DNA of 47,196 bases from Phycisphaerae bacterium (GTDB taxonomy: Bacteria > Planctomycetota > Phycisphaerae > Phycisphaerales > UBA1924), in NCBI GenBank assembly GCA_016793195.1, contig JAEUJA010000201.1:1-47196 (forward strand), given 5' to 3'. The translations under genes and the position numbers were made by a program. Of this stretch, positions 19,469 through 42,973 are shown piece by piece. How positions within the stretch are numbered: position 1 is the stretch's first letter; each line of letters starts with the position of its first letter. The notes under the pieces are model-generated. The model was not told where the DNA came from, ran no database searches, and was given only the letters and a program-made list of their open reading frames with translations.

Positions 19469-20143
19469 TCAGGGCTTCGCCCCGACCAGCCTGGGATTCA
19501 TTCTCGCCGCAAACTCGCGCAGCACCGCGATCTCTCGCGCCGACAGTTGCACACTCACGACGCCCGCTTTCAACGACGCGGCCTTCGAGCTCGCCAACTC
19601 GATCAGGTCCTTGGTCGAGACACGAAACTCCAGCGACTCGCCCCGACCACCCCTGCCCTTGGCGGGCTCGTAGCCCGACGATCCGTCCGACGCCCCGCGT
19701 GCCGCCAGCACCTTCCCGTTCACGTTCAACTCTGCCACCGGCGAAGAGGGCGCCAGCGCCCCGGGAGGCGACGACTCGATCAAGAGGTCCACCCGCACCG
19801 ACAGCTCCCCGCGATCCTCTCGCCGGCGCTCGCCCGTGAACTCAGAGCGCACCCGCATCGTCGCTGTTGACAGCCGATACCCCGCCGGCGCACTGGCCGA
19901 GAGCGCCGCGAGCTCCGCGCACATCTGCGTGCGGTTCTTCCCCGCGTCGTAGGTCACGGTGATCGCCTCGGGCAGCGGGCCGGACGAGTCCGGGTACGCC
20001 AGTTCCGCCGCGGCCCTCTGCTTGGCGCTCGGCGCGCTCGTCCGCGACCCCGGCCACGCGTACGCCGCGACGCCGACACCCAGCGCCAACGCGCCGACAG
20101 CCAAGCCTGCCCAGACCCGAGGTCTTCCGATTCGTTCGAGCAT
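19469..20143 (-). CDS. Hypothetical membrane-anchored protein
   Basis: 224 residues from the ATG at 20143 (MLERIGRPRVW); an in-frame ATG at 20167 would add eight residues. There is one N-terminal transmembrane helix (VWAGLAVGALALGVGVAAYAW). The rest is outside the membrane, with VTYDAGKNRTQMCAELAAL and a mixed strand/helix pattern with conserved-looking ELSVRVDLLIE. I do not recognise the family. It lies 63 bp downstream of the pseudopilin gene on the same strand and 47 bp upstream of the lamin-tail gene, so it may belong to a surface-protein operon. Confidence 0.65.
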   Translation of the reverse strand: MLERIGRPRVWAGLAVGALALGVGVAAYAWPGSRTSAPSAKQRAAAELAYPDSSGPLPEAITVTYDAGKNRTQMCAELAALSASAPAGYRLSTATMRVRSEFTGERRREDRGELSVRVDLLIESSPPGALAPSSPVAELNVNGKVLAARGASDGSSGYEPAKGRGGRGESLEFRVSTKDLIELASSKAASLKAGVVSVQLSAREIAVLREFAARMNPRLVGAKP

Positions 20144-20182
20144 GGACACCGCCTGACCTCCCGCCATCGCGCCGCCGCCGAC

Positions 20183-20224
20183 GCACGCCGCACGCCGCTC
20201 GCCGCTCGCCGCTCGCCGCTCGCC
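20183..20224. repeat. Six tandem heptamers (GCACGCC x2, GCTCGCC x4)
   Basis: Exact 7-base periodicity over 42 bases in the spacer between the pseudopilin stop and the next gene. The first two units differ from the others at one base. A slippage-prone microsatellite; on the coding strand it reads GGCGAGC. Confidence 0.8.
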
Positions 20225-20230
20225 CCCGAT

Positions 20231-21166
20231 TTACCTCGGGTGCCAGTCACGATCCGTCGCCTTGTTGGCCCAACGCGTCATATCGCCCATCTGCTCCAGC
20301 GAGAGCCTCTCGGCGTGGGTGTCGAAGCTCACCGCGACCGTCTTGCCGTCGTGCCGAAAGTCCAGATGCCCGTACGTCGTCGTCGGCAAGTCCGCGTCAA
20401 AGCGGCTCGGCGCGTTCCACTTCACGAACGCCGGCACCGAGTTCGACGTCGGTGTCGCTCGCCACGGCCCGTCGAGCCGGTGGTACCCCGGCACCTTCTG
20501 CCCGCCCGAGTCCCGCAGCACGCCCCGGCTCGACGCGAACACCATCAGCCGGCTGGGAAAGATCACCTGATCGAGCCGCGTGACATAGAACGCGCCCCAG
20601 CGCGCCAGCGACGGCGCGTAATACGCGCCCCGGTGCGCATCACCCCCGACGTAGGTCGAATTCAGCCCGAAGCTCGGGTGACGCGCCATCACGCGATGGA
20701 ACGCCCGCCCGTCCTTCTTGCCGTCGCTCGCCGACTGCGCCGTGGCGAGCAGCGCCTTGTCCACGATTACCGACGGGTACGCGTAGTTCATATACGGCAT
20801 CAGCCGCCACGGATACGGCCGGATCACCGACCCCGTCAGACGAGATTCCTCGCTGGCGTTGTTGGGGTTGTCGTACACCATGAACTTGCGCCGATCCGCC
20901 CTCGCCCACGAGCCGCGCAGATACCCCGGCAGAAGCGCGCTCTTGTTGTCCTGCGCGTACAGCGTGTACGCCGTCCCCAGTTGCTTGACGCCCACCAGTT
21001 CCTTGGCCGCCTGCGCCGTCCGACGCGCCGACGCCAGCGTGGGCAGCAGGATCCCCATCAGGAGCGCGATCACCGCGATCACCACCAGCAGCTCGATGAG
21101 CGTGAAGCCGCGACGCCCGCACGCCGCGAAGTGTTGACATGAAATGTGCCGGTTCGAGTTCCTCAC
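20231..21166 (-). CDS. Type II pseudopilin-like protein (prepilin-type N-terminal domain)
   Basis: 311 residues. Start GTG at 21166 with GGAGGT five bases upstream. The N-terminus has the prepilin peptidase site and hydrophobic helix GRRGFTLIELLVVIAVIALL, cut after the glycine. The C-terminal part (YGHLDFRHDGKTVAVSFDTHAE) matches the H-X9-DG type region of the large planctomycete pseudopilin families. The product is probably an inner-membrane-assembled pseudopilin or a protein sorted through that pathway. It begins 36 bp after the KamA-like gene on the same strand and could be co-transcribed with it, or that proximity may be incidental. Confidence 0.9.
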   Translation of the reverse strand: MRNSNRHISCQHFAACGRRGFTLIELLVVIAVIALLMGILLPTLASARRTAQAAKELVGVKQLGTAYTLYAQDNKSALLPGYLRGSWARADRRKFMVYDNPNNASEESRLTGSVIRPYPWRLMPYMNYAYPSVIVDKALLATAQSASDGKKDGRAFHRVMARHPSFGLNSTYVGGDAHRGAYYAPSLARWGAFYVTRLDQVIFPSRLMVFASSRGVLRDSGGQKVPGYHRLDGPWRATPTSNSVPAFVKWNAPSRFDADLPTTTYGHLDFRHDGKTVAVSFDTHAERLSLEQMGDMTRWANKATDRDWHPR

Positions 21167-21202: not shown

Positions 21203-22384
21203 TCACCTCGCCGACTGCCCGAACTCCACATGCGTCGGAACAAACGACCCCGCCACCGGCTCCAGGTGATCCAGCCAGTACGCCTCGTCGTTCCGCTTGC
21301 ACACGAACACCTTGCCCTGGTTCTCCGCGTACTTGCTCCGGTGATACCGCAGGTACATCCGCTCGTCGTCGACCCCCAGAACCTCAACCTTGCCCGACGC
21401 GTGCGACATCGCAAACCGAGCCCGACCCGCCAGCCCCGACTCCCGAACCACCGCGTCCGAAAAAATCTCCCACGCCCGCACCAGCGGCATCTCGAACGGC
21501 TCGTTGCCCGCCGTCGGCCGCCCCTGGAACATGTAGTACTGCGGGCACCCGATGTACGACAGCTCCCGGAACAACTCCGCCAGCACGTCCGGGTCGTCGT
21601 TGATCCCCCGGATCATCGGGCACTGATTCACGCAGATCACCCCGCACTCCAGCAGCGCTGCGATCCCCGCCCGCGCCTCGGGCGTGAGTTCCCGCGGATG
21701 GTCGAAGTGGCACATGAGATAGAGCCGCTTCTCCGCCGTCGAGTAGCGCCGGAACGTCGCGCGGAGTTCCGCGTCCTCCAGCACCCGGTACGGATTGAAC
21801 GCCGGCATCTTCGAGCCGATGCGGATGATCTTCACATGGTCGATCTCGCGCAGGGCTCCGATGATCTCCGACAGCCGCTTGGTTCCCATGATGAGCGGGT
21901 CGCCCCCCGTCAGGAGCACGTTCGACACCTCGGGGTGCTCACGCAGGTAGGCCAGCCCCGCCGACACGTCCTTGCTCACCTCTTCGTTGTCGTTCATGAA
22001 CAGACGCTTGCGGAAGCAATAGCGGCAGTACGCCCCGCACACCTCGTTGCACAGCAGCAGCACCGTGTCGGTGTACTTGTGCTGCACCCCCGACTCGACC
22101 GTGTTGGCGGCCTCGTTGCTCGCGTCCAACTTGCCCCAGTCGTTCAGCTCTTCCTGGCGCGGGATGATCAGCTGCCGGATTGGGTCCTTCGGGTCCGACC
22201 AGTCGATCAGCCGAAGGTAATAGTCGTTGGCGCGGAACACATACCGCTCGGAGACCTTCTTCATCAGCTCGCGATCTTCCGCGGAGATGTTGGGAAGCTG
22301 GTCCAGCGAGTTGAGGTACTTCACGCGCCGGGGTGCGGCGTCCGCCGGGGGAACCACGATCACAGGAAGGCTCTGGGAAACCAT
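21203..22384 (-). CDS. KamA-family radical SAM aminomutase with altered substrate-binding residues
   Basis: 393 residues; ATG at 22384 with GAGGTG six bases upstream. The radical SAM cluster motif is CGAYCRYC (C116, C120, C123), preceded by the family's YTDTVLLL and followed by RKR. LLTGGDPL and MIRGINDD are further KamA-family blocks. The PLP lysine of lysine 2,3-aminomutase aligns with K332 in SHASGK. The two aspartates that hold the lysine side chain in the Clostridium enzyme (D293 and D330) align by eye with R289 (in FQGRPTAG) and A325. The enzyme is therefore probably a 2,3-aminomutase for a different, perhaps acidic, amino acid. It lies 81 bp downstream of an ATP-grasp gene. Confidence 0.85.
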   Translation of the reverse strand: MVSQSLPVIVVPPADAAPRRVKYLNSLDQLPNISAEDRELMKKVSERYVFRANDYYLRLIDWSDPKDPIRQLIIPRQEELNDWGKLDASNEAANTVESGVQHKYTDTVLLLCNEVCGAYCRYCFRKRLFMNDNEEVSKDVSAGLAYLREHPEVSNVLLTGGDPLIMGTKRLSEIIGALREIDHVKIIRIGSKMPAFNPYRVLEDAELRATFRRYSTAEKRLYLMCHFDHPRELTPEARAGIAALLECGVICVNQCPMIRGINDDPDVLAELFRELSYIGCPQYYMFQGRPTAGNEPFEMPLVRAWEIFSDAVVRESGLAGRARFAMSHASGKVEVLGVDDERMYLRYHRSKYAENQGKVFVCKRNDEAYWLDHLEPVAGSFVPTHVEFGQSAR

Positions 22385-22465
22385 CTCATTCACCTCGCAA
22401 CAAACCAGCCGACACCGCCGAATCCCCGCACGCGGGCACCACCAACGCTCAAACAACCGCCACGC

Positions 22466-23488
22466 TCAACCGACCGTGACCCCGGCGCCACGCGGCGCTG
22501 GCACGTTGAAATACCGCCGGTGAGCCGAATCCACGATCTCGCCCGCCAGCTCACTGAAGCTCAGACCTTCCTGACGCGCCGCCATCACATACGCGCCGCC
22601 CCAGCCCAGCGACGCCATCGAGTTGATCTCCAGCACGAACGCACGACCCTGGGCGTCCACACGGATGTCCACCCGCGCGTAGTCGCGGCAGTGGCACGCC
22701 CGGAACGTCCCCAGAGATATCTCACGCAGACGCGCCGCCAGTTCGTCGTCCACCGGTGCCGGGCACACACGCTGAGGCTCCTCCTCGCTCTTGTGAACCT
22801 TGTCCGCGTGCGTCATCATCGCCATGTGACGCCCACCGAACGAGATCTCAACCAGCGGCAGGCACCGCGAGGGATTCCCCAGCATCCCCACCGCGATCTC
22901 TCGACCCTCGATGTACTCCTCCACCAACGCTTCCTGTTGATACCCCTCGACCACCGCCACCACCGCTTCATCAAGCTCCGCCTGCGTCCGCACCAGGCGC
23001 AGACCAAAGCTCGATGACTCGTGCCGCGGCTTCACCACCAGCGGGAACTTCAACCTCGAGACGTCGCCGCCCGGACCGCCCAGCACCGCGAACGCGGGCG
23101 TCGGAATCCCGGCGTCGATCATCAGGATCTTCGTAATCACCTTGTCCAACGCCAGCGTGTGGCCGAGCGGGCTCGACCCCGTGTACGGGATCCCCGCCAT
23201 CTCCAGCATCGCCGGCACATGCGTGTACCGGCAGTCGCCCTGCACGCCGTACGACATGTTGAACACCAGGCCGCCCGGCCGTCCCGTCGTGGCGTCGGGT
23301 GGCATGAATTCCTTCAACGCCGCCAGCATGGTCATGTCGCCCTCGAAACACGCGACCTCGTGCCCGACCTCGCGCAGCGCGTCGATCACCCGCTGCACCG
23401 ACTGCTTCCCGTACACCTCGGGGCTCGCACGCCCGAACGCGCCGATGATCCCCGCGTTGTCCCTGTTCCGCACCACCGCGATACGCAT
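22466..23488 (-). CDS. D-Ala-D-Ala-ligase-like ATP-grasp enzyme
   Basis: 340 residues; ATG at 23488 with AAGGAG upstream. The fold is visible: FNMSYGVQGDCRYTHVPAML and GIPYTGSSPLGHTLALDK in the N-terminal domain, the ATP-binding strand FPLVVKPRHESSSFG, VEEYIEGREIAVG, and the metal-binding end DYARVDIRVDAQGRAFVLEINS. It resembles D-alanine--D-alanine ligase but lies in a non-peptidoglycan context, beside an aminomutase and a 7TM protein. ATP-grasp ligases join a carboxylate to an amine through an acyl-phosphate. I infer that it ligates an amino acid, possibly the aminomutase product. The true substrates are unknown. Confidence 0.85.
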   Translation of the reverse strand: MRIAVVRNRDNAGIIGAFGRASPEVYGKQSVQRVIDALREVGHEVACFEGDMTMLAALKEFMPPDATTGRPGGLVFNMSYGVQGDCRYTHVPAMLEMAGIPYTGSSPLGHTLALDKVITKILMIDAGIPTPAFAVLGGPGGDVSRLKFPLVVKPRHESSSFGLRLVRTQAELDEAVVAVVEGYQQEALVEEYIEGREIAVGMLGNPSRCLPLVEISFGGRHMAMMTHADKVHKSEEEPQRVCPAPVDDELAARLREISLGTFRACHCRDYARVDIRVDAQGRAFVLEINSMASLGWGGAYVMAARQEGLSFSELAGEIVDSAHRRYFNVPAPRGAGVTVG

Positions 23489-23686
23489 TGCCGAACTCCT
23501 TCGCTCATCCGACGCTGCCCATGCGCCGTCGACCGCGCCGTCCTGTCACGATCTCCCCGCCCAAGCGACTCCCAAAGCCAGTACCCCCCGCCCCGACCAC
23601 GCCCCCCCCGGAGCGCAATCACCCACGCCGACACCCTCGCAGGAGCCGCGCCTTCAAGCCCAGATACATCAAAAGTGCTGTTTGAT

Positions 23687-24577
23687 CTACAACGACGCCG
23701 CCGGAGCCGAAGCATCGCCCGCGCCTGCCGCCCTCCGCCGCTTCTTGCGGACGGGCACCGGATTCCAGCGCTCGAGCAGCCGCCATTTCATGTGCCGCGC
23801 CGACAGGATCACGCACGCCACGACCGCCAGGAGAAGCTCCGGGAACCGCACCAGCGCGACCTGAAGTTGTTCGATCGACGAGATCGCCGTGATAGCCAAC
23901 GCCGCGCCCGCCGTTGCCACCGCCCGCCACACCGCCGATCGAGCGCCCTCCCGCCGCAGTGTCACCGCGAACGCATCCCCGCTGAGCGCCAGCACCACCA
24001 CCGGAAAATACGCCACCCGCTCCACGCCGGGAACACCCATCGCGATCCCCACCAGCATCGCCGCCACGATCATCCCCGCCACCGCCGAAAGCAACGCCGC
24101 CGATCGGGCGAAATACGCCAGCCGAAGACGCTTGATGAGCGGGCGCAGCACCGTCACCGCCCCAAGAACCAACGCAAAGAACACAATCCCCACCAGCGCG
24201 CCCGTCACCTGAAACGCCACCGCCAGCAGCACCGATCGGAACGGACCTAGAACCCGCAGGCCCAGCGTCAGCCGGAACATCACCACCACCAGCGCGCCCA
24301 GAGGCACAACCAGCAGGTGCAAGGTCCGAGAGCGAAGCTCGGGAGACAACCGCCCGAACGACAGCCACTCCGACAGCGCCGCCGATCCCGCAAGCCCCGA
24401 TAACTTGTACGCCATCAGGGCCATCGGCACCAGAAGCAGTACCGCCACCACAACGCGCCGACGACGACGCCTCGCTGCCGCACGCGCCTGCGCCGCGGGC
24501 GAGTCCACGCGATCACCCGTCCGCGGCCGTCCCGCCGCAGGGTCGATGTGGTCGGGTGTCGTTCCGTTGGACTTCAT
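23687..24577 (-). CDS. Seven-transmembrane protein resembling the 7TM domain of inactive-transglutaminase fusions
   Basis: 296 residues; ATG at 24577. A basic cytoplasmic N-terminus (RRRRRR near residue 36) is followed by about seven hydrophobic helices and ends with RKKRRR. The blocks TLGLRVLGPFRSVLLAVAFQ, TGALVGIVFFALVL, VLRPLIKRLRL, YFPVVVLALSGDAFAV and FPELLLAVVACVI match my recollection of the 7TM domain usually fused to an inactive transglutaminase (UUP1-type membrane proteins), which occurs with ATP-grasp ligases. No transglutaminase-like domain is present here. The gene lies 198 bp upstream of the ATP-grasp gene. Transport, export or sensing of the ligated product is possible but unproven. 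Confidence 0.72.
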   Translation of the reverse strand: MKSNGTTPDHIDPAAGRPRTGDRVDSPAAQARAAARRRRRRVVVAVLLLVPMALMAYKLSGLAGSAALSEWLSFGRLSPELRSRTLHLLVVPLGALVVVMFRLTLGLRVLGPFRSVLLAVAFQVTGALVGIVFFALVLGAVTVLRPLIKRLRLAYFARSAALLSAVAGMIVAAMLVGIAMGVPGVERVAYFPVVVLALSGDAFAVTLRREGARSAVWRAVATAGAALAITAISSIEQLQVALVRFPELLLAVVACVILSARHMKWRLLERWNPVPVRKKRRRAAGAGDASAPAASL

Positions 24578-24708
24578 GCCGCGGCTTCAATCCTCGTGAA
24601 CAAGAGCCGCGACAACCGCCGCGGATACATCAACCACGCCCGGGCGCGCACTCGACAACTGCAACCCCCGCGCACACGTCCCCATGCGACGGTCGATCGG
24701 ACCACCCC

Positions 24709-26355
24709 TCACGAATCACGCACAAACGCCGCGCTCGCGCCGTCACGCCGGGGGTCCGCCGCGCCAACCCGGCGACCGGCTTGGTCCCAATAGATCGCCT
24801 GCACCGCCCCCATCTTGTAACTCTTCGGCGGGCGCGGCCGCACCTTCCGAAACCCCGCGCGTAACGCGTCCAGCACCTCCGACCCCGCCGACTCCTCCGC
24901 CCACACGCCCCCGCCAAGGAGCGCGTGCGCCCGCGCCATGCCCAACGCCGCTCCCACGCTCAGCCCGCGATCAACCACCGCGCTCACCACCTGAACCACC
25001 GACGACGCAATCCGCCGACTCCCGGCCGATCCAAGCGCCAGAAGCGGCTCGCCCGACGCCCGCAACACCAGCGTCGGCGCCGCGTTCGACTGCGGCAGGC
25101 ACCCCGACCCCAAGCGGTACGGATGCGCACGACGCGGGCAGGTGCTCAGGTAATTGTTGTACACGAACCCCAGCGTCGGGTGCACCACTTTCGCCCCGAA
25201 CACCGACTGGATCGACTGGGTCAACGAAACCACCCGACCCTCGTCGTCCGCCGCGCACAAGTGCGTCGTGTTCCCGGATTCCCCGCCGCCCGACCCCGAG
25301 TCACACGCGCCGCCCATGCTCCCAGGACCACCGATGTCCCGCGACTCGCCCATGTCGCGCGCGATCCGCTCCGCACGCCCCCGGCTCACCAGCCACTCCG
25401 ACAGCGACGCCCCCATGTCACCCGGATGATCCGCCCATCGTTCCCGCTCGCGGAACGACGCCAGCGTCACCCGCGCGAGCGCCGAATACCACGCCGGCAA
25501 CTCCACCACGCCCGGCATCACGATCTCGAGCAGACGCAGCGCCAGCAGCACCTGCACGCCCCCGCCCGGCGGCGGAATCGAGAGCACCGTGTTCCCCCGA
25601 TACTCGATCCGCAGCGGCACGCGATCCACCGGGAGCGACATCCCTCGAAGATCGCGCGCCCGGATCAGCCCGCCACGCTCGCGCATGTCACGCACGATCT
25701 CGTCCGCGATCCCGCCCTCGTAGAAATCCCGCACGCCTTCGCGCCCGATCCGCTCCAACGCCGCCGCCAAGGCCGGTTGCCGGAACACATCGCCCACGCG
25801 CAGCGCCACGCCGCCCCCGGGGAAGTGCCGCGCCTCGGGCGATCCCGGGCGAAAATGCCGAGCCGTCCAGGCGAAGATGCGCCGCTGCAGCCGCGTGATC
25901 CGATACCCCTCGCTCGCGATCCCGATCGCCGGCGCCAGCACCTCGCGCAGCGCCAACCGACCGTACCGACGCTGCGCCTCGCCCAGCACCAGCGGCGTGG
26001 AGGGCACCGTCGTCGCGCGCAGCCCCCGCGACTGCTGCCTCCTGTTCACCTTCGCCCGCGTCAGCGACGACGGCGCGTGCGAGTGCCCGTCCAGCACCAC
26101 CGCGGAGCCATCCCCGTGCCGAATCAGCATCGTCGTCTGCCCGCCAAGCCCGGACTCACCCGGCTCGCACACCGACAACGCCCACGCCGCCGCGCACGCC
26201 GCGTCGATCGCGTTTCCGCCAAGGGCCAGCACCCGCGCCCCGGCCTCCGCCGCGTCCGGGAACGCGGCCACCACCGTGCCGCCGATTCCAACCGCTCCGG
26301 CTCCTCCCTCGCGCGCTCGTTGGTCGACGCTCATCATGGACTCGTTCAGCATCAT
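24709..26355 (-). CDS. ggt: Gamma-glutamyltranspeptidase-family protein
   Basis: 548 residues from the ATG at 26355 (MMLNESMMSVDQ); a nearby ATG at 26337 is possible and the frame to 26532 is unconserved. Family features are VLALGGNAIDAACAAAWAL, EPGESGLGGQTTML, the autocatalytic cleavage/nucleophile site GNTTHLCAADDEG with T363, and NNYLSTCPRRAHPYRLGSG toward the end. These enzymes self-cleave and transfer or hydrolyse gamma-glutamyl groups. No signal peptide is evident, which is unusual because most family members are exported. The gene is first in a same-strand run with the 7TM, ATP-grasp and KamA-like genes (131 bp to the next). A functional link is possible. Confidence 0.88.
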   Translation of the reverse strand: MMLNESMMSVDQRAREGGAGAVGIGGTVVAAFPDAAEAGARVLALGGNAIDAACAAAWALSVCEPGESGLGGQTTMLIRHGDGSAVVLDGHSHAPSSLTRAKVNRRQQSRGLRATTVPSTPLVLGEAQRRYGRLALREVLAPAIGIASEGYRITRLQRRIFAWTARHFRPGSPEARHFPGGGVALRVGDVFRQPALAAALERIGREGVRDFYEGGIADEIVRDMRERGGLIRARDLRGMSLPVDRVPLRIEYRGNTVLSIPPPGGGVQVLLALRLLEIVMPGVVELPAWYSALARVTLASFRERERWADHPGDMGASLSEWLVSRGRAERIARDMGESRDIGGPGSMGGACDSGSGGGESGNTTHLCAADDEGRVVSLTQSIQSVFGAKVVHPTLGFVYNNYLSTCPRRAHPYRLGSGCLPQSNAAPTLVLRASGEPLLALGSAGSRRIASSVVQVVSAVVDRGLSVGAALGMARAHALLGGGVWAEESAGSEVLDALRAGFRKVRPRPPKSYKMGAVQAIYWDQAGRRVGAADPRRDGASAAFVRDS

Positions 26356-26715: not shown

Positions 26716-27411
26716 TCAGTTTCCTGTCGGGATCACGCGAAGGTTGTCGAACGAAGTGACCGCATCCGCCTTCGTCCACAGGCCCACGCCGCCGGCTTCT
26801 GGCAGAGCGCTGTCGGTCGCTTCGATCCTCGTCGTTCCGTTCAGCGTGCAGACGATGTGGTGACCGATATGCTCAATCTCGATGGTGTGCCACCCGCCGG
26901 AAGCTACTTCGACGGATGCGGTCGCCAGTTGCTTCCTCGTGCCATCAACAACCTTGTAGACACGGAAGTTGCTCTCGAGCGGGTTTGCCCGGCAGATGTA
27001 GTAGTTGTCGGCGTCGCGGACGCGCCAGATCGGCCCGCCGCCCTGGTCGACCTCGCCGGCGACCGACTTGAACCGGACGCTGATACGCCCGTCGCCGAAC
27101 CGGATCGAGTCGGTCCAGCACAGGTTGTACGTCTGATCCTGGCCGTGGCCGGAAGCCGTCAGCGCCAGCGCGTTGGGCGGGGTGGGGGCGGTTGGGTCCG
27201 CGATCACCCGCCATTCGGCCAGCGGGCCTTGGCCCTGGCGCGTGCCCCCAATCCTCCATCCGGGCGGCACGCTCCCCACGGCGCGATCGTCAAACGAGAT
27301 CGCATCGGGCGACTTTGGTGATCGCTCCGGCTGGTCGCGATTTCCGCCGGCGCAGCCCGCGACAACCAGAGGGAGCAGCCCCATCGACGACCTGAGCGTG
27401 AAAGATTTCAT
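26716..27411 (-). CDS. Lipoprotein with concanavalin-A/LamG-like domain
   Basis: 231 residues; ATG at 27411, preceded by an in-frame GTG. The signal has a lipobox LVVAGC (Cys near residue 20). The rest reads as a jelly-roll domain: ISFDDRAVGSVPPGW, IRFGDGRISVRFKSVAGE, GPIWRVRDADNYYICRANPLE, NFRVYKVVDGTRKQL, WHTIEIEHIGHHIVCTLNG and a closing FDNLRVIP. This pattern is common to DUF1080/LamG-type domains that bind sugars or polymers on the cell surface. The ligand is unknown. It is 56 bp downstream of another lipoprotein gene on the same strand. Confidence 0.78.
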   Translation of the reverse strand: MKSFTLRSSMGLLPLVVAGCAGGNRDQPERSPKSPDAISFDDRAVGSVPPGWRIGGTRQGQGPLAEWRVIADPTAPTPPNALALTASGHGQDQTYNLCWTDSIRFGDGRISVRFKSVAGEVDQGGGPIWRVRDADNYYICRANPLESNFRVYKVVDGTRKQLATASVEVASGGWHTIEIEHIGHHIVCTLNGTTRIEATDSALPEAGGVGLWTKADAVTSFDNLRVIPTGN

Positions 27412-27469
27412 CACGGATCATCATACACGACGGCGAGTCTGGTAGTCCGGCACACCCAGTCGCGCATGC

Positions 27470-30298: not shown

Positions 30299-31696
30299 AT
30301 GGCACGCTCACGCGCGGCTGTGGGGCTGAGCGCACTAGCGCTCGCTACCGCGGCGATCTTGATACCTGTCTACGCCCACGAAGGGCACAACAAGCCAGCC
30401 GGGGCAACGTTCGACCCGAATGCGCCAAAGAGGGTCTCGGAGGCGACGGCCGCGGCGATTGGCCTTGCCACTGCCGAGGTGGACTTCGGGCAGGTCGAAG
30501 ACGTCGTCCGCCTGACCGGTATGGTCCGGGCGCGTCCGGACGCGCTGGTGGCCGTCTCACCGCGCTACGCGGGCGTGGTTCGCCTGGTCGCCGTCCAACC
30601 GGGAGACTTCGTTGAGAAGGGCGCGACGCTGGCCGAAGTTGATTCGCCGGAGATGGCCAAGCTGCTCTATGACGTCCGCCGGCTGGAAGGAGAAACCGAG
30701 CGGCTGGACGCTGAGCTGAAGCGGGCTGAGTCGCAGGTGCAGTCGCTTGAGATCGAGCTGCCCGCCCTCACGCAGGGCGCGGAGCTGCTCGAGGCCGAGG
30801 TGCAGAGACTCACGAGTGCAGGCGAAAACGTCTCCGCCAACCTGCTGACTCAACGCAGATCCGAAGCGATCAAGCTGCGGGCCGACGCCGGTCTGCGCGG
30901 GGTCGCCCTGGAACAGGCTCGGGCGGAGCTCGTATCGCTGAGGAAGCAGGTCGCAACCACACGGGCTTCAGCCGAGGCCCTCAGGGGAACACTCCCAGCC
31001 GAGAGCGATCCGCACGCGGTCGAAGTGCTCGCCGACCCCACTCGGCCGGGCTTGATCCGCTTCCTGGCACCGATCGACGGCGTGGTCACCACACGCAGCG
31101 CGGCGGTCGGCCAGGGCGTCGAAGCCGGTCAGCCCCTGCTGACGATCGGGGACTTCGCCCGGGTTCAGATCGAAGGAGAGTTGCCCGAAGGCCTCGTCGA
31201 CCGCCTCACTGCTGCCAGCGGCAGCAAGGTCCGCATCCGACGCGGCGTCGGCGCGGCAAGCGATGTGGTCGCGGAAGGAACGGTCCGCTTCGTCAGCCCG
31301 GTGATTGACGCCACCAAGCGCACCGCGCACGTGCTGGTTGAAGCGGAGAACGCGAAAGGGCTGCTCCGCCAGGGCCAGTTCGTGGACCTGTCGATCGTGA
31401 TTGCCGCCAACGACTCGGCGGTGGTGATCCCCGCGTCGGCCATCGTCAAAGACGGCCCCCTCCTGTACGTGTTCGTAAGGGAGGGGAAGGGTGACGACGT
31501 CATCTACAAGAAGCGCGACATCGCCGCGGGCGTCCGTGATGATCGGGTGGTTGAGATCAAACTAGGTCTGGTGCCCGGCGACGTGATCGCTGTGAGCGGC
31601 GCGTTCAGCCTCTCGCAGCTTCGCGGCTTCGTCCCCGGCGTGCCGGAGCCGACCTCGCCCGTGCAGAGCTCCGACGGCCACGGCCATTCTCACTGA
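30299..31696 (+). CDS. czcB: RND efflux periplasmic adaptor, CzcB-like
   Basis: 465 residues; ATG at 30299 with GGAGGT upstream. A signal peptide (ALALATAAILIPVYA) is followed by HEGH. Lipoyl/barrel halves (YAGVVRLVAVQPGDFVEKGATLAEVDSPE and IRFLAPIDGVVTTRSAAVGQGVEAGQPLLTI) flank a long alpha-hairpin rich in Glu/Leu (about residues 115-235). The membrane-proximal domain follows. The C-terminus is SDGHGHSH. This is the membrane-fusion protein that links the inner-membrane RND pump with a TolC-type channel. The following gene is its pump, 42 bp on. Confidence 0.9.
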   Translation: MARSRAAVGLSALALATAAILIPVYAHEGHNKPAGATFDPNAPKRVSEATAAAIGLATAEVDFGQVEDVVRLTGMVRARPDALVAVSPRYAGVVRLVAVQPGDFVEKGATLAEVDSPEMAKLLYDVRRLEGETERLDAELKRAESQVQSLEIELPALTQGAELLEAEVQRLTSAGENVSANLLTQRRSEAIKLRADAGLRGVALEQARAELVSLRKQVATTRASAEALRGTLPAESDPHAVEVLADPTRPGLIRFLAPIDGVVTTRSAAVGQGVEAGQPLLTIGDFARVQIEGELPEGLVDRLTAASGSKVRIRRGVGAASDVVAEGTVRFVSPVIDATKRTAHVLVEAENAKGLLRQGQFVDLSIVIAANDSAVVIPASAIVKDGPLLYVFVREGKGDDVIYKKRDIAAGVRDDRVVEIKLGLVPGDVIAVSGAFSLSQLRGFVPGVPEPTSPVQSSDGHGHSH

Positions 31697-31738
31697 TCGA
31701 CGCTTCCGCGCTTCGGCCCCGAAGAAGAGGACTCTCCC

Positions 31739-34700
31739 TTGCTCAACTGGATCATTCGATCATCTCTGAACAACCGCGTGCTGGTGCTGATCGCCGCGCT
31801 GCTCGTCTCCGTCTATGGGATGTACGTGACGCTGCGGACGCCCACGGACGTTCTGCCTGACCTCAACCGTCCGGTCGTGACCATCATGACCGAGGCTGCG
31901 GGGCTTGCTCCGGAGGAGGTCGAGGCCCAGGTCACGTACAACATCGAAACCGCCGTCAACGGCTCACCGGGCGTCGAAAGGGTGCGGAGCGTTTCATCAC
32001 TTGGGCTCTCGATTGTCTTCGTCGAGTTCCAGTGGGGCACGGATCTCAAATACAACCGCCAGGTCGTCACCGAGCGGATGGGCACCATCACAGAGAAGTT
32101 GCCCCCCGGCGTTGTGCCGGTCATGACGCCCGCCACCAGCATCATGGGCGAGATCGCTTTGATCAGTGTTTCCAGCAAAACACTCACGCCGATGGATGTA
32201 CGCACGGTCGCGGAGTTCACGCTGCGCCCGGCGATCCTCTCGATCCCCGGCATCGCCCAGGTAACGGCGATGGGTGGCGATCTCAAGCAGTTCCGAGTGC
32301 AGGTCGATCCCGACAAGCTCCGCTTGTTCGATCTCACCATCGAGGACGTCGAGAAAGCCCTCGCCGCCGCCAACCAGAACACCGGTGGCGGCTTTGTGGT
32401 CAGCGGTTCGCAGGAACTTGTCGTCCGCAACATCGGGCGGGTGCAGACCGCCGATGACATTGCACTCTCCCTCGTCGCCACCAAGCCTGGCGACCATGTC
32501 AGCCCGCCGCGGGCGGTGCTGGTGCGCGACGTGGCGACGGTCATCGAGGCGGGGCCGACGATCAAACGAGGCGACGGGTCGGACAACGGCACGCCCGCTG
32601 TCATCATGGCGATCCAGAAGCAGCCGGGGGCGGACACGATCACGCTCACCCGGGCACTCGATCAGACGCTGGAACAGATCAGGCCCACGTTGCCCAAGGG
32701 AATCGAGATCAACGCCGATGTGTTCCGTCAGGAACACTTCATCAAGTCATCGATCGGCAACGTCTTTGAAGCCCTTCGAGACGGCGCAATCCTGGTCGTC
32801 ATCGTTCTGATCCTCTTCCTCATGAACGTGCGGACGACGATCGTCACGCTCACTGCGCTGCCGCTCTCGATCATCACGACGTTCCTGGTCTTCCACTGGC
32901 TGGACCTGAGCGTGAACACCATGACTTTGGGTGGCCTGGCAGTTGCCATCGGCGAACTCGTGGACGACGCGGTGGTCGACGTGGAGAACGTCTACCGCCG
33001 CCTGGGTGAGAACCGCCGCACTGCCACCCCCAAGCCGATCGCGCAGGTCGTCTTCGACGCCTCCAGCGAGATCCGCAATCCGATCATCCTCGGCACGATC
33101 ATCGTCAACCTGGTGTTCTTGCCGACGTTCTTCCTCCCGGGCATCGAAGGTCGGCTCTTCGCGCCGCTCGCCACTGCGTACATCGTGAGCATCTTCGCGT
33201 CGCTGCTCGTGGCGCTCACTGTCACGCCGGTGCTGGCGTACTACCTCCTACCTGGCATCAAGCGCATGGAGCATGGCAAGGATGGCGCGTTGCTGCGGGC
33301 CTGCAAGTGGCTGGCGCTCAAGTCCTACTCGATCTCCATGCCACGCCCGGTCGCGGTGCTGGGAACGCTCGGCGCTCTGGTCACGGTGGCGTTGTTCGTC
33401 GTCACGCGCCTGGGCTCGGAGTTCCTGCCGCCCTTCAACGAAGGAACGGCCGTCGTCTCGTTCTTTGGCCAGCCGGGCGTGTCACTGGACGAGTCCAACA
33501 AACTTGGCACCAAGGCCGAGGAGATGATCCTCTCGATTCCCCAGGTCAAGAGCACGGCCCGCCGCACCGGCCGCGCCGAGCAGGATGAGCACGCGCTTGG
33601 CGTGAATGCCAGCGAGATCGAGGTCGATTTCTGGACAAGGGAAGAGGCGAGGTATCCACACAAGCACACCACACCCGGGGGCAGAAAACCACCGCCGGTC
33701 AAGGACATCCTCCCGCGCGAAGAAGTCTTCTCGATGATCGAGGAGAAGCTGGCGGCCTTCCCAGGCGTCGCTACGGGCATTGGCCAGCCCATCAGCCACC
33801 GCATCGAGCACTTGCTCTCGGGCGTCCGCGCGCAGGTCGCCATCAAGATCTTCGGCGACGACCTCGGCACGCTCCGCACCCTCGCGGAGCAGACCAAGGC
33901 CGCGATGGAAGGCATCCCCGGCGTCGCCGACTTGCAGGTTGAGCAGCAGGTGCTGATCCCTCAGCTGCACATCAGCGTCAACCGCGCCGCGGCGGCCCGC
34001 GTCGGCTTCACGCCCGCGACGCTCACCGATGCGATGGAGACGGCCACCAAGGGCAAGGTCGTCGGCCAGGTGCTCGACGGCCTCAAGGTATTCGACATTA
34101 CCCTGACCCTTGACGACCACCACCGCACCGATCCGACGGCGCTGGGCCTCGTGCGGCTGGTGTCTCCGACGGGCGCGATCGTGCTCGTGCAGGACGTCGC
34201 CGAGATTGTTGAGAGACTCGGCCCCAACGAGGTCCAGCGCGAGAGCCTGCGTCGCCGCATCGTTGTCTCCGCCAATGTCCGCGGGCGCGATCTGGGCTCG
34301 ACGGTCGAGGAGATCAAGAAGTCCATCGGAATGGACGTCCAACTCCCGCAGGGGTACACGATCCAGTACGGAGGCTTGTACGAGGCCCAGCAGGAATCGA
34401 CCCGCCTGCTGCTCGCCTTGGGCGCGGGCTCGCTCATCGCGATCTTCGTCATTCTTTTCACGCACTACCGCTCGGGCATGGTCGCCATCCAGATCATGCT
34501 CAACGTCCCCTTCGCGTTCCTGGGGAGCGTCGCCGCGCTTGCCATCACCCGCGAACCCTTCAGCGTGGCCTCGCTCGTGGGCTTCATCAGCCTCACCGGC
34601 ATCGCCACCCGCAACGGCGTGCTGATGGTCAGCCACTACATCCACCTCATGACCGAGGAACGCCGCCCCTGGAGCAAGGAGCTCATCATCCAGGGCAGTC

Positions 34701-35095
34701 AAGAGCGAGTCGCCCCGGTGCTCATGACCGCCGTCACGGCGGGGCTGGGCCTGATACCGCTGGTGCTCAGCAAGGGCGAGCCGGGCAAGGAGATCCTGTA
34801 CCCGGTCGCGGTCGTCATCCTCGGCGGGCTCATCACCAGCACGCTGCTGGACTTCTTCGTCACACCGGCGGTCTTCTATCGCTTCGGCAGGCATAGCGCA
34901 GAGCGTCTGGCGCGGGAGCACGCCGAGAAGCATGGGGAGAGGTCGCCGAGCCACCCCGCACCAGTCATAACCGACAATCCTGTCAAGCCCACCGTCGCCG
35001 CGTCAGCAGGGGCGAACGACCGTGGAAGCGACGCCGCCCCTGCATTGCCCGAACCCGGCCGCTCAGCGGCCTCAGATCAAGGAGATCGCTCATGA
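31739..35095 (+). CDS. czcA: Heavy-metal efflux RND pump, CzcA-like
   Basis: 1118 residues; TTG at 31739 with AAGAGG upstream. Twelve transmembrane helices are expected; two large periplasmic loops are visible. The proton-relay motif reads AIGELVDDAVVDVEN (D409, E416). The porter-domain segment HRIEHLLSGVRAQVAIKIFG has no methionine at the CusA copper site and is closer to CzcA-type (Zn/Co/Cd) pumps. Which metal it moves is not proven. The extra C-terminal tail is Ala/Pro-rich. The stop overlaps the next gene's start as ATGA, so the pump is co-translated with a metal-binding protein. Confidence 0.92.
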   Translation: MLNWIIRSSLNNRVLVLIAALLVSVYGMYVTLRTPTDVLPDLNRPVVTIMTEAAGLAPEEVEAQVTYNIETAVNGSPGVERVRSVSSLGLSIVFVEFQWGTDLKYNRQVVTERMGTITEKLPPGVVPVMTPATSIMGEIALISVSSKTLTPMDVRTVAEFTLRPAILSIPGIAQVTAMGGDLKQFRVQVDPDKLRLFDLTIEDVEKALAAANQNTGGGFVVSGSQELVVRNIGRVQTADDIALSLVATKPGDHVSPPRAVLVRDVATVIEAGPTIKRGDGSDNGTPAVIMAIQKQPGADTITLTRALDQTLEQIRPTLPKGIEINADVFRQEHFIKSSIGNVFEALRDGAILVVIVLILFLMNVRTTIVTLTALPLSIITTFLVFHWLDLSVNTMTLGGLAVAIGELVDDAVVDVENVYRRLGENRRTATPKPIAQVVFDASSEIRNPIILGTIIVNLVFLPTFFLPGIEGRLFAPLATAYIVSIFASLLVALTVTPVLAYYLLPGIKRMEHGKDGALLRACKWLALKSYSISMPRPVAVLGTLGALVTVALFVVTRLGSEFLPPFNEGTAVVSFFGQPGVSLDESNKLGTKAEEMILSIPQVKSTARRTGRAEQDEHALGVNASEIEVDFWTREEARYPHKHTTPGGRKPPPVKDILPREEVFSMIEEKLAAFPGVATGIGQPISHRIEHLLSGVRAQVAIKIFGDDLGTLRTLAEQTKAAMEGIPGVADLQVEQQVLIPQLHISVNRAAAARVGFTPATLTDAMETATKGKVVGQVLDGLKVFDITLTLDDHHRTDPTALGLVRLVSPTGAIVLVQDVAEIVERLGPNEVQRESLRRRIVVSANVRGRDLGSTVEEIKKSIGMDVQLPQGYTIQYGGLYEAQQESTRLLLALGAGSLIAIFVILFTHYRSGMVAIQIMLNVPFAFLGSVAALAITREPFSVASLVGFISLTGIATRNGVLMVSHYIHLMTEERRPWSKELIIQGSQERVAPVLMTAVTAGLGLIPLVLSKGEPGKEILYPVAVVILGGLITSTLLDFFVTPAVFYRFGRHSAERLAREHAEKHGERSPSHPAPVITDNPVKPTVAASAGANDRGSDAAPALPEPGRSAASDQGDRS

Positions 35096-36999
35096 AACGT
35101 TCACGGCTTTCGGTTCTGTCAGTAGCTATCGCTTCTGGACTCGCGCTCTCGACCGCTCCGAGCGCGCTCGCGCAGCACGGCCACGGGGATCAGCCCGGGC
35201 ACAAGGACGACGGCCACTCGCACGGGGAGGTGACCAAGGCGGGGTCGTTCGCCGACGCGGCGAATCGCATCGCCGTCGATGTGAAGGCGATGGACGCCGC
35301 CCTCGCCGGCGGCTCCATCGCGGGCGTCTCGGACAAAGCCAACGCCGTCGCCACGCTCGCCAAGACGCTGGGGGCGCTCGCGCTCGCCAAGGACAGCGGC
35401 GTGCCGCGCGAGAAGGTGAAGGACATCAACCTCGCCAGCAAGGAACTCGCCGAGGCGGCGGACAACCTGCACAACATCGCCGATGCCGGTGATCTCGCCA
35501 AGAGCAAGGCGGCGTTCGCGCCCGTGAAGGCGGCGGCGGCCAAGGTCGCGGCGCTGGCCCCGGCGATGGCGGACGGCCACGATCACGGCCACGGCGCGGA
35601 GGCGGCCCCGGTCACGCACACCGTCACGGTTGCTGCCGAGGGCGGCAAGGCCATCGAGGCGGGCAAGGCCGCGGCGATGGTCTTCACGCTCAAGGACGCC
35701 AAGGGCGTGCCCGTCAAGGATCTGGACACGGTTCACGAAAAGGTGCTGCACCTGCTGGCGGTGAGCAAGGACCTCTCGTGGTTCGCGCACGAGCATCCCA
35801 CGCGCCGCGCCGACGGCGCGTTCACGATGCCCATGACCTTCCCGGCGGGTGGCGAGTACACGCTCTACTTCGACTTCACGCCCAAGGGCACGCCGCAGCA
35901 GGTGGTGCCGGTGAAGGTGACGGCGAGCGGCACGCCAAAGGCCGCCGTGTCGCTGACGGTCGATGCCGACAAGCCCAAGACCATCGACGGCTTCACGGTC
36001 GCGCTCGACACTGAGGGGGCGATCACGGCCGGTGGCAAGGCCCACATGTCCTTCACGATCACCAAGGACGGCAAGCCCGTGACCACGCTCCGCCCGTACC
36101 TGGGCGCGATGGGGCACCTGGTCATCATCAGCCAGGACGGCACGCAGTTCGTCCACGCGCACCCGCATGAAGGGGGCGAGCACGGCGAGGGAGGACATGA
36201 TGCTCACGGCGGGCATGGCGGACACGGTGCCGATGCGAAGAAGGATGATCACGCGGGGGGGGCGGGGCATGGTGGCGCAGCGCCGAAGGCTGCCGCGCAG
36301 GTTGGCGGCCCCAAGGTGGACTTCGAGGCCCACTTCAAGGAGCCGGGCACTTACAAGGCGTGGGGCCAGTTCAACGTCGGCACCACCGAGAAGGAGCAGG
36401 TCTTGACCGTGCCCTTCACGTTCACCGTCGAGAAGGGCGGGGCGGGCGGCCACGGGGAGAAGCACGGCGCGGCCCCGGCCAACACCGTCTGCCCCATCAC
36501 CGCCGATGCGGCGGATGCCAAGATCACCCGCGACTTCAAGGGCCAGGCCGTCGCGTTCCACGATCCGGCCTCCGCCGCCGCGTGGGAGAAGTTGAGCGAG
36601 ACCGAGAAGATGAGCAAGTTTGTCGCGGCGATCGCGGCCTCGTCCGCCAAGGGCGGGCATGACGGCGACGATTCCATGCCCACGGGCGTGAGCGCAGACG
36701 ATGAGCGGGCGCTCTACCTGACGCCCGGCGGCGTTTACACCGAGGCCGACATCAAGGCCAACGGCTCGGTCACGGCGGGCGACAAGTACAAGGGCAAGAT
36801 GGCCAAGCACGACATGAAGCCCAAGGCCGGGGACAAGGTCTGCCCGATCACGATGACCAAGGCGAACCCCAAGTTCACCTGGATCATCGGCGGCAAGACC
36901 TACGAGTTCTGCTGCCCGCCGTGCATCGACGAGTACGTGCTGCTCGCCAAGACCTCGCCCAAGGAGGTCCTCGACCCGAGCGAGTACATCAAGAAGTAA
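35092..36999 (+). CDS. Large periplasmic metal-binding protein with His tracts and two YHS/TRASH-like modules
   Basis: 635 residues; ATG at 35092 overlapping the pump stop, AAGGAG upstream. Signal peptide 1-27 is followed by HGHGDQPGHKDDGHSHGE. A helical region (about 50-155), then HDHGHG, precede two similar beta domains; the first has VHEKVLHLLAVSKDLSWFAH plus HP, the second LGAMGHLVIISQDGTQFVHA plus HPHEGG. A very His/Gly-rich linker (about 360-400) follows. Two Cys modules end the protein: VCPITADAADAKI (degenerate) and VCPITMTK with TYEFCCPPC, like YHS/TRASH metal-binding domains. A periplasmic metal buffer or chaperone for the adjacent pumps is likely. No enzyme motif is seen. Confidence 0.78.
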   Translation: MKRSRLSVLSVAIASGLALSTAPSALAQHGHGDQPGHKDDGHSHGEVTKAGSFADAANRIAVDVKAMDAALAGGSIAGVSDKANAVATLAKTLGALALAKDSGVPREKVKDINLASKELAEAADNLHNIADAGDLAKSKAAFAPVKAAAAKVAALAPAMADGHDHGHGAEAAPVTHTVTVAAEGGKAIEAGKAAAMVFTLKDAKGVPVKDLDTVHEKVLHLLAVSKDLSWFAHEHPTRRADGAFTMPMTFPAGGEYTLYFDFTPKGTPQQVVPVKVTASGTPKAAVSLTVDADKPKTIDGFTVALDTEGAITAGGKAHMSFTITKDGKPVTTLRPYLGAMGHLVIISQDGTQFVHAHPHEGGEHGEGGHDAHGGHGGHGADAKKDDHAGGAGHGGAAPKAAAQVGGPKVDFEAHFKEPGTYKAWGQFNVGTTEKEQVLTVPFTFTVEKGGAGGHGEKHGAAPANTVCPITADAADAKITRDFKGQAVAFHDPASAAAWEKLSETEKMSKFVAAIAASSAKGGHDGDDSMPTGVSADDERALYLTPGGVYTEADIKANGSVTAGDKYKGKMAKHDMKPKAGDKVCPITMTKANPKFTWIIGGKTYEFCCPPCIDEYVLLAKTSPKEVLDPSEYIKK

Positions 37000-37113
37000 T
37001 CGTCGCCGCCGCGCCGGGCGAGAGCCGTCGCGACGGCATCCTGCGTGCCCAACCCGACGGGCCATCCGTCATCCGTTCAGCCGTCCCATTCCAAGTTCCC
37101 CGGAGTCCATCCC

Positions 37114-37899
37114 ATGAAGAAAGCCCCCACCGTGTTCATCCGTTCATTCGCCGCGCTCGTGCTCGGCACAGGCATCGTCAGTGCCGCCGCCCGGGCGGCG
37201 CAGCCCCAGCCGCCCGCCGAGACGGCGCAGGCCCAGCCCACGCTCAAGCCCGTCAACAAGCTCTGCCCGATCATGGAGAACGAGGTAGACGCAGAAGCGC
37301 CCACGCGGCAGTTCAGGGGCGTCACCATCGGCTTCTGCTGCCCCGGCTGCGACCGCAAGTGGGACCGCAAGTCCGACGAGGCGAAGATGGCGCTCCTGAC
37401 CAAGGCCGCTCCGGAGGCCGTCGCGGCGATCAACGCGGCGAGCAGCCCGGCCCTGAAGGTCGCCCGCGAGTACCTCACCGCGTGCGGCAAGGCCGATGTC
37501 GAAGCCCTCAACGCACTGTTCCTCGACAAGGGCCGCGCGACCGTGAGCGAGAACGCGGGCGATGAGGGTACGTGGGAGACCTACCGCGACCACCACCTCC
37601 TGCCCGAACTCAAGGAGATGCCGGGCTTCGTCATGACCATTGCGAAGGAGGACGTGCAGACCTTCGGCACGACCTCGATCGTGCGGCAGATCGGCTCGTT
37701 CACCGTCCCCGACCCCAAGCACCCCGATGCGTCGAGGAAGTTCCTGGCCGCCGTGACCTATATCGTGGTGGACGACGGCGGCACGCCCAAGATCGCGCAC
37801 CTGCACTGGTCGAGCCGGGCGGAGAAGAAGCCCGCCGCCGACGCCACGGCGAAGCCGGATGCCCCGCATGGCTCAAGCGGCGGCCACGGGCACAAGTAA
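37114..37899 (+). CDS. Exported protein with YHS/TRASH-like Cys module and NTF2-like domain
   Basis: 261 residues; ATG at 37114 (upstream frame not conserved) with CGGAG upstream. Signal peptide about 1-28. KLCPIMENEVDAEA then FCCPGCDRKW forms a Cys module like that in the preceding protein. From about residue 110, AREYLTACGKADVEALNALF and later TYIVVDDGGTPKIAHLHWS resemble an NTF2/SnoaL-like (DUF4440-type) fold. The C-terminus is GSSGGHGHK. Metal handling in the periplasm is inferred from Cys, His and neighbours; the role of the NTF2-like domain is unknown. Confidence 0.75.
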   Translation: MKKAPTVFIRSFAALVLGTGIVSAAARAAQPQPPAETAQAQPTLKPVNKLCPIMENEVDAEAPTRQFRGVTIGFCCPGCDRKWDRKSDEAKMALLTKAAPEAVAAINAASSPALKVAREYLTACGKADVEALNALFLDKGRATVSENAGDEGTWETYRDHHLLPELKEMPGFVMTIAKEDVQTFGTTSIVRQIGSFTVPDPKHPDASRKFLAAVTYIVVDDGGTPKIAHLHWSSRAEKKPAADATAKPDAPHGSSGGHGHK

Positions 37900-38007
37900 C
37901 CACAACCACGGTCTCGCTCCGCCGACGCGGCGCGGGCCGATTGCACGAGCCGAGGCTCGCCGAAAGGCTCGGCGGGCCGAAGCAGTGTTCTTTCAGGAGA
38001 TTGTCCC

Positions 38008-38346
38008 ATGATGTCCGCACGTCCTGTCGTTCTCGCCTCCATCCTCACCCTCACCGCCGTGTTCGTCGCGGGCGGCTGCGCCAGCGACAAGCACACCATG
38101 ACGTCGGCGCAGCCGGGGCAGGTCTCGGTCTGCACCAAGTGCTATGACGAGATCACCAAGGTGCGCGGCACGTACCACCCGCGGACGGGGTACACCGGCG
38201 ACCGTGTCATCAAGACGCACCGGTGCGACGACTGCAAGAGCGACATGAGCGTCTACGAGCAGGACGGCGTGCTCAAAGTCCGCTGCGCGTCGTGCGCACC
38301 CGAGGGTGTGGACTGCGACCGGTGCGCACCGCGCGCTGCTAAGTGA
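38008..38346 (+). CDS. Small Cys-rich lipoprotein with four CxxC pairs
   Basis: 112 residues; ATG at 38008 with AGGAGA upstream. Lipobox VAGGC (C24). Four CxxC pairs: C42/C45, C73/C76, C93/C96 and C103/C106, arranged like two zinc-ribbon-type sites. Anchored outside the cytoplasm, it could bind copper, zinc or silver. I recognise no family. It lies between the YHS protein and the TolC gene on the same strand; the preceding spacer (37900-38007) contains short inverted repeats around GCCGAG/CTCGGC. Confidence 0.75.
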   Translation: MMSARPVVLASILTLTAVFVAGGCASDKHTMTSAQPGQVSVCTKCYDEITKVRGTYHPRTGYTGDRVIKTHRCDDCKSDMSVYEQDGVLKVRCASCAPEGVDCDRCAPRAAK

Positions 38347-38394
38347 GTGCCGCCGTCCCGCTGCTCTTCCGCCGCTTTCCCGGAGACTTCGTTC

Positions 38395-42958: not shown

Positions 42959-42973
42959 ACGGAGGAGCGACTC

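Follow-up and report, generated by a model that had tools for sequence, protein, structure and literature searches.

Gene content and conservation of the cassette

We analyzed a window of 47,196 nucleotides, the whole contig C305 (JAEUJA010000201.1) of a metagenome-assembled genome (MAG) of a Phycisphaerae bacterium (genome G000; 3.6 Mb in 342 contigs, 84% complete). The window carries four consecutive genes on the minus strand, here called the cassette. In transcription order, they encode a gamma-glutamyltranspeptidase (GGT)-like protein, a membrane protein of the 7TM_transglut family, a Ddl-like ATP-grasp ligase and a KamA-like aminomutase. All four had been named in the original prediction, made from the letters of the window, and all proved to be real genes with Pfam or NCBIfam matches:

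24709..26355, minus strand: GGT-superfamily (Ntn hydrolase) protein (PF01019, E 2.4e-98; TTH motif)
23687..24577, minus strand: stand-alone 7TM_transglut-family membrane protein (PF14402, E 1.1e-26)
22466..23488, minus strand: Ddl-like ATP-grasp ligase from a subfamily of its own (PF07478, E 5.9e-32; subfamily tree; active-site columns)
21203..22384, minus strand: KamA-like radical SAM aminomutase (TIGR03822 and TIGR00238 below cut-off; alignment with 2A5H; pocket columns)

The GGT gene starts with the ATG at 26355, in agreement with the coordinates first given for it. It is separated from the 7TM gene by 131 bp, and the 7TM gene from the ligase gene by 198 bp. The KamA open reading frame (ORF) is open up to a TTG at 22456; this TTG is doubtful, and the ATG at 22384 is the more likely start.

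Conservation was examined in a phylum search of 294 genomes and in a scan of 84,980 species genomes, which was seeded only with the Ddl alignment and from which the best 80 loci were kept. Loci were thus chosen by ligase similarity with their neighbours ignored, and were then searched with the other cassette proteins. Many of the cassette loci come from MAGs. In at least 18 loci (17 from the scan and L139 from the phylum survey), a 7TM gene lay directly upstream of the ligase gene on the same strand. These 18 loci belong to four phyla: Planctomycetota, Acidobacteriota, Pseudomonadota (alpha and gamma) and Zixiibacteriota. KamA was adjacent in 13 of them and GGT in 10, and nine had the complete set of four genes. 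The order GGT-7TM-Ddl-KamA, identical to that of the window, was found in six loci and KamA-GGT-7TM-Ddl in three, while the others had 7TM-Ddl-KamA (four loci), GGT-7TM-Ddl (one) or 7TM-Ddl alone (four).

In several genomes, neighbouring genes were joined. Single ORFs encoded a 7TM-Ddl fusion in L139, L158, L160 and L168, and a Ddl-KamA fusion in L154 and L156. Both fused domains were verified with Pfam in L158, L168 and L154. The four genes are therefore a conserved, sometimes fused gene set. This bears out the earlier proposal that they form a system: a co-occurrence survey of the kind suggested there found the genes side by side, in conserved order, across lineages of four phyla.

Independent evidence came from the phylum search, seeded with the 7TM protein as well. 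Seven other genomes had a member of the Ddl subfamily, aligned over its full length with 45-58% identity, and a close stand-alone 7TM protein was found in four other genomes of 293, all of them within these seven (hypergeometric P 1.2e-7, uncorrected for phylogeny). In three of the four genomes with both, the two genes sit at separate assembly positions. The Ddl-like query had no match in viral contigs.

The locus was absent from members of the window's own genus, which makes horizontal transfer into this genome likely; the contig may also have been misbinned in the MAG. This absence, together with the assembly of the MAG in so many contigs, could be taken to mean that the genes are chance neighbours or an annotation artefact. 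Such an explanation is highly improbable, since several phyla share the gene order and strand, and six fusion genes were found.

Active-site residues and the membrane protein

The ligase (340 amino acids) has the ATP-grasp fold of Ddl and VanA ligases, with their ATP and Mg ligands; among solved structures it is closest to D-Ala-D-Ala, D-Ala-D-Lac and VanA ligases. In A1, aligned to solved Ddl, residues R272, D274, E287 and N289 (in RVD and LEIN) are invariant. The ATP, metal and catalytic columns and the N-terminal Glu position are kept, while the position of Tyr216 is not; for Tyr216 and the other Ddl residues, we assume the roles generally ascribed to them. The cassette ligase differs from Ddl and VanA in forming a separate subfamily, under every NCBIfam cut-off (163 bits against 243 for PRK01372, 146 against 246 for TIGR01205), in being fused or adjacent to 7TM, KamA and GGT, and in coexisting with a canonical Ddl. 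The earlier reading would have been hard to maintain for the only D-Ala-D-Ala ligase of the cell. This is not the case here: contig C15 of G000 encodes a second, canonical Ddl that outscores the cassette ligase (151 versus 112 bits), and another Ddl is present in 17 of the 18 cassette genomes.

In a quick maximum-likelihood tree, with support given only by the Shimodaira-Hasegawa-like approximate likelihood ratio test (SH-aLRT), the 7TM-linked ligases and those of rhizobia formed one group (SH-aLRT 99). Further Ddl-like proteins from relatives of the window genome fell outside it. In a second group (SH-aLRT 94), spread over about ten phyla, the ligase is accompanied by an M20-like domain, GGT and N-formylglutamate amidohydrolase. 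Its members form a sister system, which we call type B, with the Ddl-like ligase, the M20-like domain (often fused), GGT and the amidohydrolase encoded in a row (L144, L145, L179, L183, L185, L188, L192, L202, L221 and others), in two gene orders, one in Bacillota and one in the others. Type B resembles the cassette in its sister Ddl subfamily and related GGT; it differs in having neither KamA nor 7TM at the locus, and in having the peptidase-like domain and the amidohydrolase.

The KamA-like protein is clearly similar to lysine 2,3-aminomutase (2A5H, E 1e-47). Its best NCBIfam match was TIGR03822 (E 1.7e-63), and it was under every equivalog cut-off, with 197 bits against 525 for the lysine model TIGR03820. 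In all aligned cassette KamAs, the CxxxCxxC motif and the lysine for pyridoxal phosphate (PLP) are kept, as in KamA/AblA, EpmB and glutamate 2,3-aminomutase (EAM, TIGR04368). They differ from these enzymes in their partner genes and in the pocket. Arg replaces Asp293 of 2A5H and Ser replaces Asp330 (Ala in L156), two residues that we take to be the lysine-binding pair; in the window protein, the Asp330 position was located through lysine-type rows. EAM presumably has Lys and Asn at these two positions, and a near-EAM protein, L239 (570 bits against 650 for TIGR04368), has Lys at the Asp293 position. Taken together, these residues suggest that the substrate of the cassette KamA is probably acidic, and our best guess from the pocket is conversion of glutamate to beta-glutamate. 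The earlier statement that KamA makes a beta-amino acid needs amending to this extent, as the pocket is not of the lysine type.

The Arg/Ser pair was also found in KamAs that are not adjacent to the ligase, in the genomes of L159 and L167, and in those of L158 and L160, whose KamAs belong to another family. In the KamA tree, the proteins of the window, L153 and L168 fell in an otherwise free-standing planctomycete clade, and the remaining cassette KamAs grouped in a second one. The window lineage therefore probably exchanged its KamA for a related one of a different clade that has the same pocket. The closest relatives by sequence (L076-L088) make up that free-standing clade; they have the Arg/Ser pocket and no shared neighbours were seen, and none is near Ddl, 7TM or GGT. 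Their isolation was considered as a refutation of the cassette, a view overturned when the Ddl-seeded scan revealed the cassette, in most instances with a KamA of a different clade.

KamA also adjoins Ddl-like ligases in another planctomycete operon (L094:1404-5274), which encodes two of them, a GNAT acetyltransferase and a lysine-type KamA. Two ligases and KamA are found in L095:9389-12982, and ligases with GNAT, without KamA, in L066:7450-10003. This operon differs in its two ligases and its acetyltransferase, and has neither 7TM nor GGT. We rejected it as an instance of the same system, because KamAs beside such ligase pairs retain both Asp residues of the lysine type.

The GGT-like protein keeps the catalytic Thr in its TTH motif and scored 250 bits against a cut-off of 358 for TIGR00066. 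The positions of Arg114, Asn411, Gln430 and Asp433 of E. coli GGT, which we take to bind the gamma-glutamyl group, are altered in all 11 cassette GGTs. No signal peptide or hydrophobic N-terminus was visible in the six inspected. With the canonical gamma-glutamyl residues and the signal peptide missing, removal or transfer of a glutamyl group, as first proposed, is only a guess.

The membrane protein (296 amino acids) matched the RloB model only at positions 284-498 of 508 (70.9 bits against 900). The match is confined to the C-terminal 7TM part, and the inactive transglutaminase domain is therefore absent, which upholds its description as a stand-alone 7TM protein. It has one N-terminal transmembrane helix, preceded by a basic flank, and a 7TM unit; its AlphaFold model had a predicted local distance difference test (pLDDT) score of 85. 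Hydropathy analysis gave 6 to 8 hydrophobic segments. Since an ATP-using ligase follows the 7TM part in the fusions, its C-terminus should face the cytoplasm. It had been suggested to handle the product at the membrane; physical fusion with the ligase in four genomes points to more than handling. We found no paper naming PF14402.

The nearest described system, the rlo operon of Pseudomonas, encodes RloA, a retropepsin-like protease, RloB, an inactive transglutaminase joined to 7TM, and RloC, an ATP-grasp protein (PMC12239564). The cassette resembles it in pairing a 7TM_transglut-family protein with a cytoplasmic ATP-grasp protein. It differs in having neither the transglutaminase domain nor a retropepsin-like gene, in its Ddl-like rather than RimK-like ligase, in the addition of KamA and GGT, and in the 7TM-ligase fusion of some genomes. 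RloA and RloC had no match in L153-L169, and no retropepsin was seen among the scanned neighbours in the window. As two defining features of rlo are missing, we did not file the cassette as a member of RloABC.

A possible beta-amino-acid ligation module

From the gene linkage and the fusions, the intact radical SAM motif, the residues kept in the ATP-grasp ligase and the altered pockets, we infer the synthesis of an acidic beta-amino acid, its ligation at the membrane and action of the GGT-like protein on the same product. The radical SAM aminomutase would act on an acidic amino acid and shift its amino group; the most likely conversion is that of L-glutamate to beta-glutamate. The ligase, held at the cytoplasmic side of the membrane by docking to the 7TM protein, would convert the carboxylate of an amino acid to an acyl phosphate and then to an amide with a partner molecule. 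The 7TM protein would anchor the ligase and might export or sense the product. The GGT-like Ntn enzyme, in the cytoplasm, would hydrolyse or transfer the acyl group of the ligation product, for recycling or trimming. The feeding of a KamA product to the ligase at the membrane, as in the original prediction, has inferential support only. We give such a dedicated beta-amino-acid ligation module a probability of about 0.5.

Several observations weigh against it. The KamA protein scored only 199.5 bits against 650 for TIGR04368, under the EAM equivalog cut-off. The GGTs of type B, which have no KamA partner, have lost the canonical glutamyl-binding residues too, so that the changes in the cassette GGTs are not attributable to beta-glutamate alone. 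In a fold search with the 7TM protein, no match was trustworthy above the level of a helical bundle, the best being RnfA/NqrD/NqrE chains (Z 7-8 over about 120 residues). Some rhizobial loci have the ligase with neither 7TM nor GGT nearby, which implies that not every part is obligatory. The module is known here from genes alone, and its substrate, product and direction are deduced from them.

A rival reading is peptide or protein tagging of an Rlo/RimK-like kind. At the membrane, the ligase would attach an amino acid or beta-amino acid to the terminus of a protein or peptide, and its removal would fall to the GGT-like protein. The partnership of the 7TM family with ATP-grasp proteins in rlo (PMC12239564) speaks for it, as does locus L152, where RloA-like, 7TM-transglutaminase and ATP-grasp genes are adjacent. 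We still consider tagging somewhat unlikely, because the ligase belongs with Ddl rather than RimK, its closest solved relatives use small substrates, the transglutaminase domain is missing and no conserved small substrate gene was noticed alongside the cassette. Those same relatives could instead point to the cell wall, with the ligase making a modified D-Ala-X or a stem peptide containing a beta-amino acid for peptidoglycan. This is quite doubtful: G000 encodes a canonical Ddl on another contig, nearly all cassette genomes have another Ddl, the Tyr216 position is changed (its role being assumed) and no mur gene was recognised at the loci.

Osmolyte synthesis is an unlikely alternative on balance; here KamA would supply a beta-amino acid as compatible solute, with the remaining genes producing, exporting or recycling a neutral derivative. 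Beta-glutamate and N-acetyl-beta-lysine are established solutes (PMC1224877), and rlo genes influence hypo-osmotic tolerance (PMC12239564). However, the GNAT partner of the AblA/AblB pathway had no query match in L153-L169 and was not seen among the scanned neighbours in the window, and the named cassette carriers showed no obvious halophile bias by eye. Moreover, according to a review (PMC1224877), glutamate aminomutase activity was excluded as the source of methanogen beta-glutamate, which leaves it without precedent there.

We found no description of this gene combination in the open literature searched, a scope outside which Iyer et al. 2009 (amidoligases) lies. The pairing of 7TM and ATP-grasp proteins is already known, and there is a real chance that the chemistry of the cassette is itself new. 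The labels 'lysine 2,3-aminomutase', 'D-Ala-D-Ala ligase' and 'gamma-glutamyltransferase' probably mislead for these genes. The ligation module would join these three genes and an unexplained 7TM family in a single testable pathway. As 7TM is fused here to an ATP-grasp ligase whose family is tractable, beside an amino-acid-making enzyme, a direct assay is possible, and the cassette is present in culturable, genetically tractable Bradyrhizobium.

Rhizobial loci and neighbouring genes

On plasmid pBb323S2b of Bradyrhizobium barranii, genes annotated as lysine 2,3-aminomutase, gamma-glutamyltransferase, 7TM and ATP-grasp lie in a row, with overlapping ends between GGT and 7TM and between 7TM and the ligase. 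Ligase homologues were found on 13 plasmid records, all rhizobial, and KamAs 72-86% identical to that of B. barranii on 26 further rhizobial plasmids. In the tree, rhizobial ligases without 7TM and GGT branch next to those of the Bradyrhizobium cassettes, which suggests that these partners were lost from their loci.

The 164 genes changing in soybean nodules include bll8232 ('L-lysine 2,3-aminomutase'), bll8231 ('gamma-glutamyltranspeptidase') and bll8230 (no COG) (PMC8632152, Table 2), and the hypothetical protein bll8229 is in a bacteroid proteome table (PMC6320959). By annotation and order only, bll8229-bll8232 of B. diazoefficiens correspond to the cassette, with bll8232-bll8230 matching KamA-GGT-7TM. 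In pea bacteroids, proteins annotated as lysine 2,3-aminomutase and D-Ala-D-Ala ligase were among the most abundant and were undetected in vegetative cells (PMC7950203). A new membrane-docked pathway for an acidic, beta-glutamate-like beta-amino acid, common to planctomycetes, acidobacteria and nitrogen-fixing nodule bacteria and acting in symbiosis in the last of these, is a tentative extension of the ligation module.

KamA relatives have other neighbours as well in rhizobia. One ORF of Rhizobium tibeticum (L178:2883-5579) encodes a condensation domain of a nonribosomal peptide synthetase followed by a KamA with the Arg/Ser pocket. Several rhizobial KamAs have ATP-grasp genes nearby that carry the annotation biotin carboxylase subunit; one of these genes, in L177, is of the LAL_C2 type. 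On rhizobial plasmids, among them L251, L252 and L253, the cassette KamA has relatives near such 'biotin carboxylase' ATP-grasp genes, ectoine-synthase-like genes and MurR/RpiR regulators, likely an unrecognised biosynthetic locus.

Upstream of GGT, the window has one possible accessory gene:

26716..27414, minus strand: 3-keto-disaccharide-hydrolase/lectin-like protein (PF06439, E 4.8e-07)

A PF06439 homologue lies directly upstream of GGT also in L154; none was seen at the remaining loci. After KamA, a prepilin-like gene and an additional gene of unknown type are shared by the window (19469-21166) and its closest relative (L153:12341-13897), so that synteny reaches beyond the cassette there. 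A gene for an HlyD-type membrane fusion protein precedes the 7TM-Ddl fusion in a planctomycete (L139:7251-8480) and in a Thiohalocapsa MAG (L158:7612-8775). In genome G065 (L148:6447-13264), GGT, 7TM, an opposite-strand KamA of a third family and a second GGT are clustered. Outside the cassette, the plus strand of the window carries two RND-type efflux gene sets at 30299-46645, of the metal-efflux type as judged by eye.

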